Positions 3,201-11,147 of a DNA stretch of 11,557 nucleotides are shown in pieces. The stretch's first letter is position 1. Each line of letters starts with the position of its first letter. Source of the stretch: JBHIBR01 sp046759145 [NCBI: Nitrospinota bacterium] (lineage in GTDB: Bacteria > UBA8248); contig JBHIBR010000023.1 in the NCBI GenBank assembly GCA_046759145.1, positions 1 through 11,557 on the forward strand, read 5' to 3'. The notes below the pieces were generated by a model. That model saw only the letters and a list, made by a program, of their open reading frames with translations, did not search any database and was not told where the DNA came from. Both the position numbers and the translations under genes were made by a program.

Positions 3201-3344
3201 GGGCGAAGAAATGAGGCGGTGCGCATCTTCCGCAAGCTGGCGAAGGTGACGCGGGACCCCCATCTCCGGGAGCGGGCGCGGGCGCGGGCGGCGGCCCTGA
3301 CGAAGGTTCGCGGTGGGGGCCCCCCGCGGGGAGGGAGGCCGTGA
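249..3344 (+). CDS. Large secreted TPR-repeat protein of a TonB/Tol-type operon
   Basis: A protein of 1031 residues. Residues 1-34 look like a Sec signal peptide: a basic start, a hydrophobic core (ALCLGLVAVWF) and a PQA-A cleavage-like site near 33. A Pro/Leu-rich linker covers about 60-100. From about 120 to 1000 it is almost entirely tetratricopeptide helices, with repeated units of the type GRxxEAxxxFxxxLxxxP, for example near 207-222, 508-523, 615-630, 653-668 and 987-1000. Such arrays are protein-protein scaffolds; several repeats resemble the TPR type of YbgF/CpoB and BamD. Location is inferred to be periplasmic. The start at 249 is chosen because it overlaps the previous stop (ATGA) and precedes the signal peptide. 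ATG at 279 is an alternative, with GAGAGG 7 bp upstream. The open frame extends further 5', but there it lies over the preceding gene. It overlaps the ExbB-like gene by 4 bp. TPR partners of TonB systems are known (for example TtpC/TPR genes of Vibrio TonB2 loci), so a role in assembling or gating this energy-transducing complex is plausible but unproven. Confidence 0.88.
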   Translation: MKKDRPRGGRMRGALCLGLVAVWFNWVAERPQAAEKLGIPLPEVVILGKDEAKLLTRRAAVSPPEKLPLDPLPLPSLSRPKLPLPPVRVPRAAPPRPRIPERFFNPVLSRVARLRRDPTSLFFTAHALEREGNREGAVAALRQLRRLHPAHPLSRESLFWEGEWRLRQGEVGDARALWEELARGPKWAARREEALYALGWLAHREGRYAEAHRFLLDHRRDYPESARRSEAPFLAAHAAFAGGKLEEASRLFAAFLREAPGSSYAGQASVLWAEGRFRAKGCRGTLSLYDDALKRLPRGEPTAAGWRQAALFGKGWCLLQGGKTKGAAEAFREGLRETPRGSREEALRLGLLLALAREGDHPRFGKELARFRSRHPRSPRLAHLDFLLGWLSLRAGLVDVAARSLEEFLDRHPLEGPHAQARFLLGLMRYQQGNYGWAVVHFRRAAAEGAPPALASRALLNSAFARLRLGDLPHGEEALAGLLGRFADLPASQQARLWQGEVAFQQGRLEEALRAFGAVQPGSPAHPSSLYGQGWVYYRKEDWEEAARLFGRLAQRYPRSDLLPEALARLAEARFNLKRYDESLRALDAIIARLPGTEEAARALFRRGKVLYKQGRFAEARKAFQAFLDGRPQEPAAAEALYWRAMVHFRQERYAEARKEFHALIEAYPNSPFAVEAYLRIGDAFYNQGQFLPADRAYRLVLARFPRHPRTRDALYGVILAGLQRGEYAEFVTEARRFIESHPRNPLTVTLAFQLGEHFFTRRSLAEAEEAYQRVVLLYPDSGYADDALLRLAEVHRKQGRMARAGEALDQLLQRYPKSPLAPDARFRRGELLARAGQCEKALGVLEEFLRRHPKHDYAPAVHFQAGRCAERVGKVAKAIAHLQKPVAAEGVGALGDKAALYLGRLLLRQGEVSQAEAPLRRAAQLREPALASEARFLLGEALQLVGRDEDAAVEYLKLTYLYPDQELWVGRALLRTGEIYAKLGRRNEAVRIFRKLAKVTRDPHLRERARARAAALTKVRGGGPPRGGRP

Positions 3345-3940
3345 TCGACTTTGTCGCCAAGGGCGGCGTGCTCATGCTCCCCATCCTCTTCTGCTCCGTC
3401 CTGGCGCTGGCCATCATCCTGGAGCGGTTCATGAGCCTTCGGCGCAGCCGGATCATGCGGTTGGATGTCCTGCGGCGGGTGGAGGAGCTTTTGCGCGAGA
3501 AGCGCGTGGGGGAGGCGAGCACCCTCTGCCGGCGGAACTCCTCCTCCATGACCCGGCTCCTCCAGGCGGCCATCCTGAATCACGAGAGGACGAAGGAGGA
3601 GATCAAGGAGATCGTCGAAGACACAGGGAGGCACGAGATCCCCACCCTCGAGCGCTACCTGAACATCCTGGGCACCATCGCGGCCATCTCGCCTCTGCTC
3701 GGACTGCTGGGGACGGTGACGGGCATGATCCGGGTCTTCAACGTGATCTCCGTCAAGGGGGTGGGCCACCCGAGTCAACTGGCGGGGGGGATCGGAGAGG
3801 CCCTCATCACCACGGCGACGGGCCTGGTGGTCGCCATCCCGGCGCTTGTCTTCTACAATTACTTCGCCAACAAGGCCGACACCTTGATCTTGGAGATGGA
3901 GAAGTACTCTTTCCGTATGGTCGAGATCCTGAAACACTGA
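3341..3940 (+). CDS. exbB: MotA/TolQ/ExbB family proton-channel protein
   Basis: A 199-residue inner-membrane protein of the MotA/TolQ/ExbB family, close to the usual ExbB/TolQ length. It has three hydrophobic segments at about 8-28, 108-130 and 155-177. The cytoplasmic stretch between the first two is charged. The second and third segments carry the family signatures LLGLLGTVTGMI (119-130) and EALITTATGLVVAIPALV (153-170). In the family these helices form the pentameric pore through which protons pass together with ExbD/TolR. It begins with GTG inside the stop of the TPR gene (GTGA), implying translational coupling, and is followed 10 bp later by the ExbD/TolR gene. From sequence I cannot say whether it is closer to ExbB or TolQ; the TonB-like gene two positions downstream favours ExbB. 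Confidence 0.93.
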   Translation: MIDFVAKGGVLMLPILFCSVLALAIILERFMSLRRSRIMRLDVLRRVEELLREKRVGEASTLCRRNSSSMTRLLQAAILNHERTKEEIKEIVEDTGRHEIPTLERYLNILGTIAAISPLLGLLGTVTGMIRVFNVISVKGVGHPSQLAGGIGEALITTATGLVVAIPALVFYNYFANKADTLILEMEKYSFRMVEILKH

Positions 3941-3950
3941 GGCGGCATCC

Positions 3951-4370
3951 GTGGAGTTCCGTCGCCACCGCAGGACCATCCCCCAGATCAACCTCACGCC
4001 GCTCATCGACGTGGTGCTCCTCCTCCTGGTGTTCTTCATGCTCTCCACCACCTTCGTCTTCCAGCCCGGCATCCGTGTGAACCTGCCGCGAGCGGTCACC
4101 GCGGAGCAGGCGCCCAAGAGAGACCTGGTCCTCATCCTCGCCCGCGACGGACGAGTCTATCTGAATGACCGCCCGGTGCCTTTCCAGGAGCTCTGGGGTC
4201 GGCTGGTGAACGAGCTGAAGGTGCAGCCCGAGGGCTACCTCGTGATCCGGGCCGACAAGGAGGTCTCTCACGGCCGGGTGGTGGCGGTCATGGATATCGC
4301 CAAGCAGGCGGGGGCCCAGCGCTTGGCCATCGCCACCCAGCCGGCCCGGAAGGTGGTGGGGCGACGATGA
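3951..4370 (+). CDS. exbD: ExbD/TolR family biopolymer transport protein
   Basis: A 139-residue protein with one transmembrane helix near the N-terminus (about 17-36) and a periplasmic domain. The motif INLTPLIDVVLLLLVFFM (13-30) is the hallmark of ExbD/TolR. Asp20 matches the membrane aspartate that family members protonate during proton flow. The later segment, including YLVIRADKEVSHG (96-108), matches the periplasmic dimerisation domain, where the family typically reads I.aDk...yg.vv.vmd. It pairs with the ExbB-like channel just upstream. The GTG start is 10 bp after the exbB stop with only a weak ribosome site (TGAGGC), so coupling to exbB translation is likely. Its stop overlaps the TonB-like gene start as ATGA. 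Confidence 0.93.
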   Translation: MEFRRHRRTIPQINLTPLIDVVLLLLVFFMLSTTFVFQPGIRVNLPRAVTAEQAPKRDLVLILARDGRVYLNDRPVPFQELWGRLVNELKVQPEGYLVIRADKEVSHGRVVAVMDIAKQAGAQRLAIATQPARKVVGRR

Positions 4371-5236
4371 GCCATTGGAGACTGCCGGCAACCTTCTCCC
4401 TCTCCCTCCTCCTTCACGGGTTTGTGCTCTACTACGGGCCTGGGCCGCAATTCGCGACCATACCGCCACCGGCACCCGACGAGCCGCACCCCGTTGAGCT
4501 GATCCGGCGGGCCATCCCGATGCCCCCACCTCCCGAGCCGAAGCCGCCCCCTGCGCCCCGTCGCGCTCCCGAGCCTCCCCCTCCACCCTCACCGCCCAAG
4601 CCCATCGACCTGGCGTTCCTGAAGAAGAGCCTGAAGGACCGGAGGTTCGTGCTCCGGCCGCCGGCCGTTCGGCCGCGGACTGTGCTGCCGAAGCTAACCA
4701 AGATCCCGCAGGCGCCACCGCTGCCTGCGGCTGAGGAGGCGCTCCTATCCCTGCCGAAGGACGCGGCTCAGAAGAAGGAGGATCGACTGCTCCGGGCGGC
4801 TCCCGGGGAAGCTAGGGTGGGCGTGCCGAGCCTCGCCTCGGACGGGTCTCTCCCCCTTCCCTCGGAGGTGTTCTCCCTGGGGAGCGAGACCACCCGGCGG
4901 CTCCTGGAGAGGGAGCTCGAGGAGGCCCTGCGCGCCTACCGGGAGAGGAGGCGGGGAGAGAAACGCGTCCGCGGCCCTGCGGCGGCCCGGCGGGTGCAGT
5001 TCCGGCCGAAGCCCCCGCGCGTGCGGGGCATCGAGTCCTCCATCGAGATCGAGCTGAAGTTCTGGGTGCTCCCTGACGGGACGGTGGGCCGCGTGGTCCC
5101 GGTGAAGAAGGGCGACGCGCGTCTGGAGGCGGCGGCCATCAGCCACCTGAAGCGGTGGCGCTTCAGCCCCTTGCCGGCCGACGCCGCCCAGGTGGAGCAA
5201 TGGGGGACGGTGGCCTTCAAGTTCCGCCTCCGATGA
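4367..5236 (+). CDS. tonB: TonB-like energy transducer
   Basis: A 289-residue protein with classic TonB architecture. A short N-terminal membrane helix (about 8-24) contains SLLLH (13-17), matching the SxxxH motif that TonB uses to contact ExbB/ExbD. A Pro-rich periplasm-spanning region follows (about 33-80, then a looser Pro-containing part to about 120). A charged helix lies near 175-200. The C-terminal TonB fold is at about 222-289, with LPDGTVGRV (235-243), an AAISHLKRWRF helix (256-266) and a final beta strand. Family TonB proteins transfer energy to TonB-dependent outer-membrane receptors. No receptor is encoded in the window, so the substrate is unknown. It is the last gene of the block; convergent genes begin 119 bp downstream. 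TolA-like use is possible, but the C-terminal domain looks TonB-type. Confidence 0.88.
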   Translation: MSHWRLPATFSLSLLLHGFVLYYGPGPQFATIPPPAPDEPHPVELIRRAIPMPPPPEPKPPPAPRRAPEPPPPPSPPKPIDLAFLKKSLKDRRFVLRPPAVRPRTVLPKLTKIPQAPPLPAAEEALLSLPKDAAQKKEDRLLRAAPGEARVGVPSLASDGSLPLPSEVFSLGSETTRRLLERELEEALRAYRERRRGEKRVRGPAAARRVQFRPKPPRVRGIESSIEIELKFWVLPDGTVGRVVPVKKGDARLEAAAISHLKRWRFSPLPADAAQVEQWGTVAFKFRLR

Positions 5237-5360
5237 GCCGGGCGCCGGCCTGAAGGACTGCGTCGAAACCCGGGGGTTCGAGCAGGCTCTCAGCTCCTCG
5301 TGATGGCCCGGTCCGTCTGAGGGGCCGGCTGTCCTCCTCCCCGCAGGCTCGAGGCTCATC
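5232..5360. repeat. 8-bp inverted repeat framing the convergent tonB / sulfur-carrier gene ends
   Basis: GATGAGCC at 5232-5239 and its exact reverse complement GGCTCATC at 5353-5360 each contain the stop codon of one of the two convergent genes. Inside lie two smaller potential hairpins: GCCGG-GCG-CCGGC at 5237-5249 and GGCCC/GGGCC at 5305-5309/5322-5326. No run of T follows any of them, so a Rho-independent terminator is not evident. The interval otherwise holds nothing I can recognise. It may act as a transcript-end structure for both operons, but the 8-bp match could be chance. Confidence 0.3.
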
Positions 5361-5595
5361 CCCCCGCCACGGGGGGGAAGATGCTCACCACCTGTCCCTC
5401 TTCAAGGGGGACCTCGGGCCTGCAGTGGCGGCCGTTTAGAAGCACGATGTGCTCCCCGGAGGGGGGGATGCGGAGAGAAGCCAACAGATCCCCTACCGTC
5501 GCACCCGCCGGGAGCTCCACCTCGGCACTCCCGTCCCGCGCCCCGGGGGGCTGGTAGCGCTCCAGCTCGACAAAGAGCTTCACCTGGACCTTCAC
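5356..5595 (-). CDS. MoaD/ThiS-family ubiquitin-like sulfur carrier in the lar operon
   Basis: A 79-residue protein that matches the MoaD/ThiS beta-grasp family in length and pattern: a VQVKLFVEL strand at the start, ATVGDLLASL (32-41), VLLNG (51-55) and the C-terminal VSIFPPVAGG (70-79). The terminal Gly-Gly is the site that an E1-like enzyme adenylates and that then carries sulfur as a thiocarboxylate. In molybdopterin synthesis MoaD does this job. Here the gene sits last in an operon with larE, larB and larC. Its GTG start overlaps the larC stop (GTGA), with GGAGG 4 bp upstream, so it is co-translated with larC. The context suggests a sulfur donor for the nickel-pincer cofactor, perhaps feeding LarE; this is inference. 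An ordinary MoaD for molybdenum or tungsten cofactor is the main alternative. No E1-like MoeB/ThiF gene is visible in the window. Confidence 0.88.
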   Translation of the reverse strand: MKVQVKLFVELERYQPPGARDGSAEVELPAGATVGDLLASLRIPPSGEHIVLLNGRHCRPEVPLEEGQVVSIFPPVAGG

Positions 5596-6809
5596 CGCTC
5601 CTCCCCCCCCAGCCGTCGGGCCGCCACCAGGGCGGCCTCGTAGACCTCCTTGAGGGGCACCCCCTTGGCGGCCGCGATGCGTCGGCAGTCCTCATATTCC
5701 GGGGCCCTGCCGCAGAGAGAACCCTCAAGCCGCGCCACCTTCACGCGGACCGGGCCGTAGGGGGTATCCACCGAGAGGGTCTCCCGCTCGGCCTTGACGC
5801 GCTCGGCTTCCCGCCAGCGCACCCCAAGGGTGGTGCTCTCCCGGAAGAGGAAGGAAGCGATGGCTTCCCGTCTCTGGGGCGGGCAGAGCACCGTCAGGAG
5901 CTGGCCGGGGCGGCCCTTCTTCATCACGACCGGCGCAGCGAAGACGTCGAGGGCCCCTCGCTCCAGGACACCCTCGAAGAGGTGCTGGAAGAACTGGGGG
6001 TTCATGTCGTCCAGGTTGGTCTCCAGGATGGCCACCGTTTCGGTCTCTGGCGTCCTCTCCTCCTCGCCCAGGAGCACTCGGAGCACGTTGGGGATGGGGA
6101 GATCCCAGCTCCCCGCCCCGTAGCCCACGCGCTCGAGCCGCATGGGGGGGCAGGGGCCGAAGGAGTCCGCAAGCTCGGTGAGGAGGAGGGCGCCCGTGGG
6201 CGTGAGGAGCTCCCGCTCGATGCCGCGGCTGTAGATGGGCGCCCCCCGCATGAGCTCCAGGGTAGCCGGGCCCGGGATGGGGAAGCTTCCGTGCGCGCTC
6301 TCCACCCAGCCCCGCCCCGTGTGGACGGGCGAGGCCAGGGCGCGGCCCGCCCCGAGGAGGCGAAAGGCCGCGAAGGCGCCGACCACGTCCACAATGGAGT
6401 CCACAGCGCCCACCTCGTGGAAGTGGATGCTCTCTACGGATACGCCGTGGATCCCCGCCTCCACCTCCCCCAGCCGCCGAAAAGCACGCGCAGCCCGCTC
6501 CTTGACCCAGGGGTCGAGGTCGCTCTCGCCGATGAGATGCAGGATCTCCCCCAGGTGGCGGCCGTGAGGGCCGCTGGCGTGCTCTTCCTGGTGGTCGGCT
6601 CCCGCCCCCCCGCCCTCGAGCACCACGTCCATCTTGGTGGCGCTGATCCCCCTCTTCACCACCCGACGGGCTTCCAGGCGGTAGCCTCGGAGGGGGAACT
6701 TCTCCAGCTCCCGGCGCAACTCCTCCGCCAGCAGCCCCAGGTCCACCAGGGCCCCCAGGATCATGTCCCCGCTCGCCCCGGCCAGGCAGTCGAAGTAGAG
6801 AGTCTTCAC
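5592..6809 (-). CDS. larC: LarC, CTP-dependent nickel insertase of nickel-pincer cofactor synthesis
   Basis: A 405-residue cytoplasmic protein matching LarC over its whole length. In characterised LarC the reaction inserts nickel into the bis-thiocarboxylated pyridinium mononucleotide at the expense of CTP. Family motifs seen are YFDCLAGASGDM (5-16), a His-containing loop (73-85, DHQEEHASGPHGR) that may hold metal, HFHEVGAVDSI (129-139), ETNLDDMNPQ (263-272), VVMKKGRPGQLLTVLCPP (294-311) and STTLGVRW (325-332). It is one uninterrupted frame, unlike Lactiplantibacillus plantarum, where LarC is made from larC1/larC2 by ribosomal frameshifting. The GTG start at 6809 is chosen because the family usually begins a few residues before this YFDC motif. 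A GTG at 6845, overlapping larB by 11 bp, is possible and adds 12 residues with low-complexity character. Neither has a clear ribosome site, so coupling to larB is likely. Confidence 0.92.
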   Translation of the reverse strand: MKTLYFDCLAGASGDMILGALVDLGLLAEELRRELEKFPLRGYRLEARRVVKRGISATKMDVVLEGGGAGADHQEEHASGPHGRHLGEILHLIGESDLDPWVKERAARAFRRLGEVEAGIHGVSVESIHFHEVGAVDSIVDVVGAFAAFRLLGAGRALASPVHTGRGWVESAHGSFPIPGPATLELMRGAPIYSRGIERELLTPTGALLLTELADSFGPCPPMRLERVGYGAGSWDLPIPNVLRVLLGEEERTPETETVAILETNLDDMNPQFFQHLFEGVLERGALDVFAAPVVMKKGRPGQLLTVLCPPQRREAIASFLFRESTTLGVRWREAERVKAERETLSVDTPYGPVRVKVARLEGSLCGRAPEYEDCRRIAAAKGVPLKEVYEAALVAARRLGGEER

Positions 6810-6834
6810 GGGAGGGGAGAGGCCCGGGCCGCCG

Positions 6835-7590
6835 CTAGCGGACACAGAGCTTGTTGATCATGTCCGCCTGGTAGGCGGCACCGAAGCCGTTGTCGATGTT
6901 CACCACCGAGACGCCGGAGGCGCAGCTGTTGAGCATGCCCAGCAGCGCGGCCAGGCCTCCGAAGCTGGCCCCGTAGCCCACGCTGGTGGGAACGGCGATG
7001 ACGGGCTTGTCCACCATTCCCGCAACCACGCTCCCCAGCGCCCCGTCCATCCCCGCGACGGCCACCACCACGTTGGCCTCAAAAAGCGCCTGCTTTTGGC
7101 TGAGCAGTCGGTGGAGGCCCGCCACGCCCACGTCGTACATCCGGTTGACGCGGCTTCCGAAGGTCTCCGCCGTGACGGATGCCTCCTCCGCCACGGGCAT
7201 GTCCGCTGTCCCCCCGCTCACCACGGCGATGTTGCCCACGCGGGCACGGCCCTGGGCTGGGTTCACCACAACGATGCGAGCCGGGGGATGCACCTCGCAG
7301 CTCGGAAAGGCGCTCTGGAGGGCGGCCGCCGCGGGGGGCTCGACCCGGGTGACGAGCACGTCCTCGTGATGCCCGGCCAGGTGCTCCACGATGGAGACCA
7401 CCTGCTCGGGCGTCTTCCCCTGCGCGAAGACCACCTCGGGGTAGCCGCTGCGCAGGGGACGGTGGTTGTCCACCTTGGCGAAGCCCAGATCCTCAAAGGG
7501 GAGGGAGCGGAGCTGCGCGAGCGCCTCTTCCGTCGAGAGTTCCCCCCGGCGGACGCCCTCCAGCAGGTGGCGAAGGGCCGCGCGGTTCAT
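6835..7590 (-). CDS. larB: LarB, nicotinic acid adenine dinucleotide carboxylase/hydrolase
   Basis: A 251-residue protein of the LarB family, whose C-terminal half resembles PurE (AIR carboxylase). Known LarB carboxylates the pyridinium ring of nicotinic acid adenine dinucleotide at C5 and hydrolyses the phosphoanhydride to give pyridinium-3,5-biscarboxylic acid mononucleotide, the first committed intermediate. Visible signatures are DNHRPLRSGYPEVVFAQGKT (41-60), VSGGTADMPVAEEA (124-137), VAGMDGALGSVVAG (178-191), VPTSVGYGASFGGLAALL (200-217) and SCASGVSVVNIDNGFGA (222-238). The start is ATG inside the larE stop (ATGA), with GGGGAG upstream, so it is translationally coupled to larE. It provides the substrate for LarE. 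Confidence 0.95.
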   Translation of the reverse strand: MNRAALRHLLEGVRRGELSTEEALAQLRSLPFEDLGFAKVDNHRPLRSGYPEVVFAQGKTPEQVVSIVEHLAGHHEDVLVTRVEPPAAAALQSAFPSCEVHPPARIVVVNPAQGRARVGNIAVVSGGTADMPVAEEASVTAETFGSRVNRMYDVGVAGLHRLLSQKQALFEANVVVAVAGMDGALGSVVAGMVDKPVIAVPTSVGYGASFGGLAALLGMLNSCASGVSVVNIDNGFGAAYQADMINKLCVR

Positions 7591-8432
7591 GGCTCTCCCC
7601 GCCCCGGGGGGACCGCCTGGAGCACGGGGAGGACCTCGTTCATGCTCCCTGAGCGGACCCCCTCCAGGTCCAGAGTGACGTAGGTGAACCCGGCCTCTTT
7701 GATGCCCCGTACCAGGGGCGCCAGGAGGTCTTCCGTGAATACGCGGCCCATCTCGTACCGGGGAAGCTCGATGCGGGCGATGGTGCCGTGATGGCGCACC
7801 CGGAGCTGGCGGAAGCCCAGGCCCCGCAGGAGTTCCTCCGCGCGCTCCACCTGGGCGAGCTTCTCGGGGGTGACCTTATCCCCGTAAGGGAAGCGCGAGG
7901 AGAGACAGGCCATGGCGGGCTTGTCCCATGTGGGGAGGCCGAAGCGGCGGGAGAGCTCCCGGATCTCTTCCTTGGTGAACTCCGCCTCCACGAGCGGGCT
8001 CCGCACCCCGTGCTGGCGCCCCGCCTGCATGCCGGGCCGGAAATCCCGGCGGTCGTCGGAGTTGGAGCCGTCCACGATCCAGGCCAGCCCCTCGGCCCTG
8101 GCCACCTCCTCCAGCTTCCCGTAGAGCTCATCCTTGCAGTAGAAGCACCGGTTGGGGGGATTGTTGCTGAAGCCCGGGACCTGGATCTCCTCCGACTCCA
8201 CCACCCGGTGGCGAATCCCGATCTGGCGGGCGAGCGCTTTTGCTTCCTCGAGCTCGCGGCTCGCGTAGGTCACCGAGCGGCCCGTCACCGCCAGCGCGCG
8301 CTTGCCGAGGACGTCGTGGGCCACCTTTGAGAGCAGGGTGCTGTCCACCCCGGCGGAGAAGGCCACCAGCACGCTGCCCATCTCCCGCAGGATGGCCTCC
8401 AGCCTCTGACGCTTCTCCTCGAGGAGCACCAT
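7587..8432 (-). CDS. larE: LarE, ATP-dependent sulfur transferase of nickel-pincer cofactor synthesis
   Basis: A PP-loop ATP pyrophosphatase-type protein. Known LarE adenylates the carboxylates of the LarB product and replaces oxygen with sulfur. The PP-loop is FSAGVDST, residues 30-37 when counting from the 5'-most ATG at 8447. Other conserved stretches are CFYCKDELYG (101-110), WIVDGSNSDD (123-132) and WDKPAMACLSSRFPYGD (174-190). Three cysteines stand out: 101, 104 and 181 (same numbering). L. plantarum LarE sacrifices a single cysteine, whereas other LarE proteins with three conserved cysteines bind a 4Fe-4S cluster; this one fits the three-cysteine type. I chose the ATG at 8432 (281 residues) because GGAGG lies 6 bp before it. 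The ATG at 8447 (286 residues) has no ribosome site. It is first in the operon and overlaps larB by 4 bp. Confidence 0.94.
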   Translation of the reverse strand: MVLLEEKRQRLEAILREMGSVLVAFSAGVDSTLLSKVAHDVLGKRALAVTGRSVTYASRELEEAKALARQIGIRHRVVESEEIQVPGFSNNPPNRCFYCKDELYGKLEEVARAEGLAWIVDGSNSDDRRDFRPGMQAGRQHGVRSPLVEAEFTKEEIRELSRRFGLPTWDKPAMACLSSRFPYGDKVTPEKLAQVERAEELLRGLGFRQLRVRHHGTIARIELPRYEMGRVFTEDLLAPLVRGIKEAGFTYVTLDLEGVRSGSMNEVLPVLQAVPPGRGEP

Positions 8433-8443
8433 CTTCCCCCTCC

Positions 8444-8462
8444 CCATGGGCGAGCCCCATGG
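8444..8462. repeat. 7-bp inverted repeat at the 5' end of larE
   Basis: CCATGGG (8444-8450) and CCCATGG (8456-8462) are exact reverse complements separated by five bases (CGAGC). The left arm contains the upstream candidate ATG of larE. If transcription starts further upstream, the element would form a hairpin just before the preferred start at 8432. It could act as an operator or as a translational control hairpin. No protein family can be named for it. Confidence 0.35.
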
Positions 8463-8540: not shown

Positions 8541-8571
8541 TCAGGTGAGAGGCCGCCCGGGAGGGAGGGGC

Positions 8572-8976
8572 GTGAGAAAGGCTGCCCTCGCGGGGGTGGT
8601 GGGCTTGGTCCTCCTCGCAGGCTGCGGGGAAGAGAAGCTGGACGCCGAGGCGACCGCCGCGAGGTTTGTGGGGTATTACTATGTCGCCATTGACCTTCCT
8701 TCTGCGCAGAAACTCACCGAGGGGCTCGCCCGCTCGGAGATTGAGCGCCAGATGCTCGCAGTGAAGCAGGCGGGGGCACCCATCGCCGGGGCCAAACCGA
8801 AGGTGGAGAGCCGGATCCTCGAGCGGCGGCAATCGGATGGCCGCGTGATGTTCCTCTTCGCCCTCACCATCCAGCCGGCGCAGGGGAGGCCCTTTGAGCG
8901 GCGGGCCCTCATCTCGGTGAGCCGAAGACCTGGGGGCTGGCGGGTCACCCACTTCCGGGAGTTCGACCTCCGGTAG
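8572..8976 (+). CDS. Small putative lipoprotein of unknown function
   Basis: A 134-residue protein starting with a lipoprotein signal: MRK, a hydrophobic core and the lipobox LAGC, with Cys18 as the lipidation site. The mature part begins GEEKLDAEA and is predicted soluble. It has a helical first half (RFVGYYYVAIDLPSAQKL, 31-48) and a beta-rich second half, with FLFALTI (94-100), RRALISVSRR (110-119) and GWRVTHFREFDL (122-133). This helix-then-sheet order with a closing GWRV strand recalls NTF2-like or DUF4878-type lipoproteins, but I cannot assign a family. The start is the GTG at 8572, because GAGGGAGGGG lies just upstream and the signal peptide then begins cleanly. A GTG at 8545 would add nine residues. 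Being divergent from larE, it may share control with the lar operon; any shared function is speculative. Confidence 0.78.
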   Translation: MRKAALAGVVGLVLLAGCGEEKLDAEATAARFVGYYYVAIDLPSAQKLTEGLARSEIERQMLAVKQAGAPIAGAKPKVESRILERRQSDGRVMFLFALTIQPAQGRPFERRALISVSRRPGGWRVTHFREFDLR

Positions 8977-9058: not shown

Positions 9059-9601
9059 ATGGACTGGCCGTTGGTGTGGGAGTGGACGAGGGCCATCGTG
9101 GTCTTCGGCGTCTTACCCCTCGGGCTCGCTGCACTCGCCGTGGCCTTGTGGCGAGAGGGCCGACGCGGTGAGGAACGCCTCCAGCGGCGCGAGCGAGAGC
9201 TGGCGGTGGTCCGCGGGGGTTTCTTGCGTTTTTCGGGGGAGATGCTGGAGAGACACCTCCAGAGCTGGGAGGCGCTCCAGCGGGAGGGGTCCGAGGCGCT
9301 TGCGGCCGAAAGGGGCGAGGTGCTCCGCGAGCTCGACCGGAGGGTTGAGGATTTCCGCGAACGCCTCCGCGCGCTGGAAGGGGAGCTGGAGTTCCTCGCG
9401 ACGCGGACCCGCAGCGCGGTGGAAAGACTCTGGGACGGAAGGGTGGAGCGGGCGCGGCGGCTGGCCCTCTCCGACCAGGCCGCGCTGCGGGACATCGCCC
9501 GCGGGCTGCTGACCGCGAGCGCAGAGAGCGGGACGGGCACACCGCCCGGTCCGCCGGGCCCCGGCGAGAAGCCGGAGAATGGGAGCCTTCAGGCCGGCTG
9601 A
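9059..9601 (+). CDS. Membrane-anchored coiled-coil protein of unknown function
   Basis: A 180-residue protein. An N-terminal membrane helix (about 11-31) is followed at once by Arg/Glu-rich residues, so the long soluble part is probably cytoplasmic by the positive-inside rule. Residues about 35-150 are heptad-like helix (ERLQRRERELAVV, EVLRELDRRVEDFRERLRALEGEL), which predicts a coiled coil. The last 25 residues are a Gly/Pro-rich flexible tail. The layout, an inner-membrane anchor plus a coiled coil, resembles small RmuC-, YhcB- or divisome-type proteins, but no motif supports any of them. The start is ATG with GGGGAG 5 bp upstream. It lies between the lipoprotein gene and hisC on the same strand, with gaps of 82 and 71 bp, so operon membership is possible but not shown. 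Not recognised as a named family. Confidence 0.72.
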   Translation: MDWPLVWEWTRAIVVFGVLPLGLAALAVALWREGRRGEERLQRRERELAVVRGGFLRFSGEMLERHLQSWEALQREGSEALAAERGEVLRELDRRVEDFRERLRALEGELEFLATRTRSAVERLWDGRVERARRLALSDQAALRDIARGLLTASAESGTGTPPGPPGPGEKPENGSLQAG

Positions 9602-10871: not shown

Positions 10872-11147
10872 TCAGCGGCGCACGGCGTCCTTGAGGGCCT
10901 TGCCTGCGTTGAACTTGGGTGTCCGGGATGCCTTGATCTTGATGGTCTCCCCGGTGCGCGGGTTCCGGCCCGTGCGGGCGGCCCTCCGGCCGACCGAGAA
11001 AGTGCCAAAGCCCACGAGGGTGACCTTCTCTCCCTTCTTGAGGGTGCGGGTAATGGCGCCCACGAAGGCGTTCACCGCCTTGTCCGCAGCGGCCTTGGTG
11101 AGACCCGCATCTTTGGCGATCCGGTTCACTAGGTCTGTTTTCTGCAT
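10872..11147 (-). CDS. hup: HU family DNA-binding protein
   Basis: A 91-residue histone-like protein of the HU/IHF family with the standard length and fold. An N-terminal helix pair ([18 protein letters not shown], 1-18) is followed by LVGFGTFSV (44-52), the DNA-binding arm [10 protein letters not shown] (58-67) with the intercalating Pro63, and the end helix GKALKDAV (82-89). The DNA-arm motif fits the signature of nucleoid HU proteins, which bend DNA and compact the chromosome as dimers. It acts in the cytoplasm. The ATG start has a very strong site, GGGAGGAGGAA, just upstream. It is a single gene facing hisC; its own promoter region carries inverted repeats described separately. HU versus IHF subunit cannot be decided with certainty, but the sequence looks HU-type. 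Confidence 0.96.

Follow-up and report, generated by a model that had tools for sequence, protein, structure and literature searches.

A ubiquitin-like sulfur-carrier gene is the lineage-wide fourth gene of a lar operon, with a predicted [4Fe-4S] LarE as its best candidate client

Two routes supply sulfur to LarE, the PP-loop sulfur insertase of the nickel-pincer (NPN) pathway: the sacrifice of its own cysteine and the action of a cysteine desulfurase. The [4Fe-4S] LarE of T. maritima keeps its cysteines, while a cysteine desulfurase supplies the cluster sulfur in vitro, and the enzyme gains activity in this way without a carrier, as described in the accessible part of PMC9283937. The same part finds the CXXC-C motif in most LarE homologs and compares [4Fe-4S] LarE with TtuA, which takes its sulfur from the thiocarboxylate of TtuB; the feeding of the [4Fe-4S] enzyme TtuA by TtuB is also described in the accessible part of PMC8584467. 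In addition, a set of MoaD proteins encoded adjacent to aldehyde ferredoxin oxidoreductase (AOR) has been described (PMC1779556, in excerpt). In the passages of open-access full text covered by our search, with the subscription literature mostly outside, no paper was found that joins a ubiquitin-like carrier to the nickel-pincer pathway.

The window analyzed here, which is the whole stretch of 11,557 nucleotides, carries on its minus strand the genes larE, larB, larC, and a small sulfur-carrier-like gene, in this order, with every junction overlapping. The overlaps are 4 bp between larE and larB, 11 bp between larB and larC, and 4 bp between larC and the carrier gene. The features of the window are as follows.

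3341 to 5236, plus strand: exbB-exbD-tonB-like genes, markers of the locus in the lineage (TonB_C by Pfam; exbB and exbD by eye)
5356 to 5595, minus strand: sulfur-carrier-like gene of the ThiS/MoaD family, 79 residues, GTG start, C-terminal GG (ORF, Pfam, alignment, and model)
5592 to 6845, minus strand: larC, nickel insertion, LarC1 and LarC2 (NCBIfam, over cut-off)
5600 to 5604, minus strand: GGAGG, a Shine-Dalgarno-like site of the carrier gene, within larC (by eye)
6835 to 7590, minus strand: larB (NCBIfam, over cut-off)
7587 to 8447, minus strand: larE, PP-loop sulfur insertase of the CXXC-C ([4Fe-4S]) type (NCBIfam, alignment, and model)
7905 to 7907, minus strand: C181 of LarE, predicted third cluster ligand (alignment)
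8136 to 8147, minus strand: C101-X-X-C104 of LarE, predicted cluster ligands (invariant in 43 of 43 rows; role by analogy with PMC9283937)
9673 to 10788, plus strand: hisC-like aminotransferase (Aminotran_1_2), conserved neighbor (Pfam)
10872 to 11147, minus strand: HU-family DNA-binding protein, conserved neighbor (Pfam)

Two ORFs between larE and hisC, at 8545-8976 and 9059-9601, have no Pfam match; the former is lipoprotein-like by eye and has a 38% relative in locus L174. Control by a riboswitch finds no support, as Rfam gave no match within the window at gathering scores.

The translated carrier ORF ends in FPPVAGG, and its product passes the cut-off of the Pfam ThiS model PF02597 (51 bits, cut-off 22.5) as well as that of Ub-Mut7C PF14451 (31 bits, cut-off 23). 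It stays under the cut-offs of all five NCBIfam models listed, namely moaD_arch (34.4 bits, cut-off 49.5), SAMP1 (30.6 bits, cut-off 60), MoaD TIGR01682 (25 bits, cut-off 66.15), ThiS TIGR01683 (17.3 bits, cut-off 37.45), and PRK11130 (14.6 bits, cut-off 94). The AlphaFold model (mean pLDDT 88) shows a predicted beta-grasp fold, for which SAMP1 and MoaD structures rank highest in the PDB, with a probability of 1.00; the match at rank 31 is a chain of a TtuA-TtuB complex, which is TtuB by its length. The GG terminus is kept in all 15 aligned carrier copies. Compared in 15 pairs, the copies of six close species give dN/dS values of 0.03 to 0.11, which shows purifying selection, and the gene behaves as a real one; its product is most likely a sulfur carrier. 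The sequence-only reading had taken it for a 79-residue carrier with a GG end, overlapping larC by 4 bp as the fourth gene of a larE-larB-larC unit, and the ORF, Pfam, and NCBIfam results agree with this description.

The linkage was followed in 18 genomes of the phylum that includes the record L004, which NCBI files as unclassified Nitrospinota. LarC is present in 14 of these genomes, and 14 likewise give a strong match to the carrier, at E 1e-25 or better. In the window and in 13 of the 14 LarC-bearing genomes, the carrier gene directly follows larC; the 14th larC (G016) runs off the end of its contig, and the 14th carrier (G022) stands without lar genes. The two genes share exactly 4 bp in the window as in nine of the 13 linked genomes; in the remaining four they are about 70 to 140 bp apart. 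Three genomes (G013, G023, and G027) have neither carrier nor larC, and their ExbD and HisC matches are distant only, so the absence may be due to divergence or incomplete assembly. A Fisher test of LarC against carrier, in which kinship is ignored, gives p 0.019 for the 18 genomes and p 0.006 when G016 is left out. Furthermore, a LarE+LarB+LarC tree places the window as sister to 12 rows of this phylum with a support of 100/99; this tree was built from the 44 rows, out of 94 candidates, in which the available DNA includes all three lar genes, the 50 others being left out. A linkage peculiar to one contig can be rejected because it is found through the phylum, and the neighborhood survey thus extends the lar association, first read from a single stretch, beyond its contig. 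Across the lineage, the lar operon has the carrier gene as a genuine fourth member.

The surroundings of the operon are kept as well. The exbB-exbD-tonB and hisC/HU flanks are both found in eight of 16 loci and on one side in the other eight, a count in which several loci are cut by contig ends and a TPR gene is left out of the comparison. Since this whole neighborhood is conserved, the adjacency to larC is weaker evidence for a shared function than it would otherwise be. The neighbors in the window are of the exbB, exbD, tonB, and hisC types, without an adjacent AOR gene, and no AOR was found anywhere in the 16 lar/carrier loci of the phylum.

To look beyond the lineage, the association was examined in the best 80 of 570 confirmed LarC stretches; in 79 of them the DNA continues for 300 bp or more past larC. 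A broad carrier profile matches four of the 80 loci anywhere in their DNA (L004, L009, L021, and L049). In L004 and L009 the carrier immediately follows larC, and no carrier was found in 76 of the 78 out-of-lineage LarC loci within the DNA examined. Both out-of-lineage carriers adjoin AOR or an AOR remnant: in L049 the carrier comes after an intact AOR, and the Desulfobacteraceae record L021 has it ~190 bp beyond larC, the intervening DNA encoding a 52-residue remnant of an AOR C-terminus (56% identity, E 5e-14). In this region (L021:4391-5350), the carrier has the tail GGAGNSR, and an ORF without a Pfam match comes after it. In the phylum of L021, a related carrier is found in 105 of 247 genomes (1e-8 or better); among its 30 best carrier loci, AOR is present at seven and larC within 1.5 kb at none. 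The phylum of G001 (82 genomes) yields five carrier matches in four genomes, four of which (L114, L115, L116, and L118) adjoin AOR and none lar genes, and the phylum of G009 (77 genomes) gave no carrier match at 1e-6 in a search run without a positive control.

The LarE of the window meets the NCBIfam model TIGR00268 with 337.6 bits (cut-off 150). Its C101, C104, and C181 are invariant in all 43 LarE rows, whether or not a carrier is present, and Ala180, the residue just before Cys181, aligns with the sacrificial Cys176 of L. plantarum. The predicted model matches the [4Fe-4S] LarE structure 8cnz with a Z of 29.3, the 'mmLarE' of which we take to be LarE of Methanococcus maripaludis. TtuA is absent among the 50 structure matches listed for the LarE model, which is neutral either way. 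Because it has the CXXC-C motif and an alanine at the sacrificial position, the enzyme is predicted, by analogy with that of T. maritima, to be a catalytic LarE of the [4Fe-4S] type. This removes the premise of the initial proposal, in which the carrier would make a sacrificial LarE catalytic, and a suicide enzyme rescued by the carrier is rejected on the same two features. As the LarE is predicted to be of the cluster type already, the carrier would feed the cluster instead of turning a suicide enzyme catalytic. In addition, some LarE residues are shared by all 11 carrier-bearing rows and seldom occur in the others, a pattern that shared descent explains equally well.

We propose, with slightly less than even confidence, that the carrier is a dedicated fourth component of the NPN pathway, in which a ubiquitin-like protein brings thiocarboxylate sulfur to the [4Fe-4S] cluster of LarE as a third route of supply. 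An E1-like enzyme encoded elsewhere in the genome would adenylate the GG terminus of the carrier, and a sulfurtransferase would convert the adenylated terminus to a thiocarboxylate. The carrier would then bind to LarE and pass its sulfur to the open iron of the tri-Cys [4Fe-4S] cluster, and LarE would use the cluster sulfide to attack the adenylylated pyridinium dicarboxylate substrate twice, as proposed for TtuB/TtuA. Thiocarboxylation, docking, and transfer to LarE are steps that we infer for this carrier. The next-gene linkage, the 4-bp overlaps, the adjacency of other carriers to their clients, a ThiF-like E1 in the relative G004, C101/C104/C181 of LarE, the match of its model to 8cnz, the TtuB/TtuA precedent, and the purifying selection on the gene all speak for LarE as the client; the G022 locus, the conserved neighborhood, the 76 of 78 outside loci without a carrier, the carrier-free supply of T. 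maritima LarE by a cysteine desulfurase in vitro, and the presence of the motif in carrier-less LarE rows speak against it. By analogy with TtuB and TtuA, LarE is the best single candidate, and the chance that it is the chief client of this carrier could be put at about one half.

The adjacency of other carriers to their clients is drawn from the genomes of the relatives and not from the window's own genome. MoaE occurs in 15 of the 18 genomes of the L004 phylum, and MoaD adjoins it in all 15 MoaE loci (L154-L168). In a MoaD tree, which is built from few alignment columns and does not include the thiS row, these 15 MoaE-linked MoaDs form their own clade with a support of 100/97. A separate clade (99/96) comprises the 13 other lar-linked rows and G022, and the window row, which has a long branch and is poorly placed, falls outside it. 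The separate moaD beside moaE in the relatives, together with its own clade, speaks against the possibility raised in the sequence-only reading that the carrier is the missing moaD of an otherwise complete moa pathway. In 14 of the 15 MoaE-linked MoaDs, one or two residues follow the GG (e.g., GGCA or GGVA), suggesting that trimming is needed before thiocarboxylation. AOR is found in all 18 genomes, and one AOR paralog has an adjacent GG-ending carrier in 16 of 17 loci (L234-L250), the 17th being a contig that ends just after AOR. The tail of this AOR-linked carrier is mostly LLMGQYMGG or LLMGQFMGG, distinct from the lar-linked carrier, and the listed PF02597 matches of G004 and G007 do not include this protein. 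In G004, thiS lies beside thiG/thiE and cysO beside cysM, the clients being named by eye. The CysO-like protein (L082, G004:C29) ends in GGR, one residue beyond GG; the ORF directly beside cysO in L082 has no Pfam match, and a ThiF-like E1 (L082:2751-3497, E 5e-21) lies about 1.5 kb further. Since the other carriers examined adjoin their own clients, the lar-linked carrier fits the pattern with LarE as its client.

A doubtful but substantial alternative is that the carrier works solely for some other sulfur pathway, its place in the lar operon being a matter of history; candidates are the W/Mo pterin of an AOR paralog that has no carrier of its own, thiolation of tRNA, or a further client. The G022 locus supports this alternative. 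It keeps exbB-exbD-tonB, the carrier, hisC, and HU, and larC, larB, and larE are gone between the carrier and hisC; neither LarC nor LarA was matched in the assembly. Its carrier retains 12 of the 13 columns that are invariant in the other 14 rows, and the locus has a GC content of 34%, compared to 54 to 72% for six others, among them that of the window. In this genome (L182), tonB and the carrier are separated by a gene for a MaoC-like dehydratase. An intact carrier without larC-larB-larE could be explained either by a recent loss of lar or by another client, and G022 is the main fact against an exclusive role for LarE. The AOR linkage of related carriers elsewhere (L114, L115, L116, and L118, and seven of the 30 top-ranking loci of the L021 phylum) points in the same direction, as does the occurrence of AOR in all 18 genomes with three loci of other paralogs (L251-L253) that have no carrier alongside. 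Against it, G013, G023, and G027 have AOR but lack both this carrier and larC, one AOR paralog is accompanied by a carrier of its own at 16 of 17 loci, and nine of 13 genomes, like the window, preserve the 4-bp overlap with larC. A carrier for the phylum's AOR is therefore weakened by the paralog with its own carrier, and the other paralogs are still possible clients. It is possible or even likely that the carrier has another client besides LarE; carriers of Thermococcus are partly redundant between pathways (PMC11323500, in excerpt), which makes a shared role plausible for the lar-linked carrier, too.

The distribution of LarA was also considered. LarA (PF09861) is found in nine of the 18 genomes, that is, in eight of the 14 with LarC and in G027, where LarC was not matched. 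The six LarC-bearing genomes without a PF09861 match are G012, G020, G021, G024, G025, and G026, suggesting that their NPN-using enzyme is not recognized or is missing from the assembly.

Another explanation, in which the product is a ubiquitin-like modifier that tags and regulates LarC, LarE, or some other protein instead of donating sulfur, appears improbable. SAMP1 is among the nearest folds, and carriers of Thermococcus also conjugate to proteins (PMC11323500, in excerpt); the explanation, however, points to no target protein here. A further consideration counts against a modifier: bacterial relatives of known role are mostly sulfur carriers. An ordinary MoaD of the molybdopterin pathway in the wrong operon is more improbable still and is rejected in view of the distinct moaD-moaE pair and of the tree, since the relatives have separate carriers for MoaE, AOR, thiamine, and CysM, every MoaE has its own adjacent MoaD (15 of 15 loci) in a clade apart (100/97), and the carrier scores 25 bits against the MoaD cut-off of 66.15, even though the two share a Pfam family and 14 of the 15 MoaE-linked MoaDs extend past GG and might need processing.

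If LarE is indeed the client, NPN synthesis would join thiamine, molybdopterin, and tRNA thiolation among the pathways fed by ubiquitin-like carriers, and the TtuA/TtuB mechanism would extend to the making of a cofactor. The sulfur supply of [4Fe-4S] LarE otherwise rests on in vitro work with cysteine desulfurase, according to the accessible part of PMC9283937. Moreover, the four genes of this lineage form a compact set suited to tests in E. coli.

Compared to MoaD of molybdopterin synthase, the carrier has the fold and the GG in common; unlike MoaD proper, it falls below the NCBIfam cut-off and has no adjacent MoaE, and the MoaE-linked MoaDs stand in a separate clade. With the AOR-adjacent MoaD set, the lar-linked carrier shares a broad tree group, within which 10 of 13 AOR-labelled rows have NGxH or DGxH and 10 of 13 an FPxxxGG-type ending. 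That set lies beside AOR, whereas the window carrier lies beside larC, and one AOR of this phylum has a different adjacent carrier; the window carrier shares its top identity (51%) with a copy for which the available DNA shows linkage neither to lar nor to AOR. The sacrificial LarE of L. plantarum belongs to the same family and fold as the window LarE, with about 40% identity and a Z of 30, and differs in having Cys176 where the latter has alanine. The [4Fe-4S] LarE (T. maritima; 8cnz) shares the CXXC-C motif and the fold; for the T. maritima enzyme, a cysteine desulfurase in vitro and no carrier are described in the accessible part of PMC9283937, whereas the window has a carrier gene in the operon. 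The TtuB/TtuA pair (Urm1/Ncs6), as far as the accessible sources describe it, likewise combines a ubiquitin-like carrier with a PP-loop enzyme acting on an adenylylated substrate, the tri-Cys [4Fe-4S] cluster being a prediction here. The difference lies in the client, which for TtuB/TtuA is tRNA in 2-thiolation and here would be LarE with its nucleotide cofactor.
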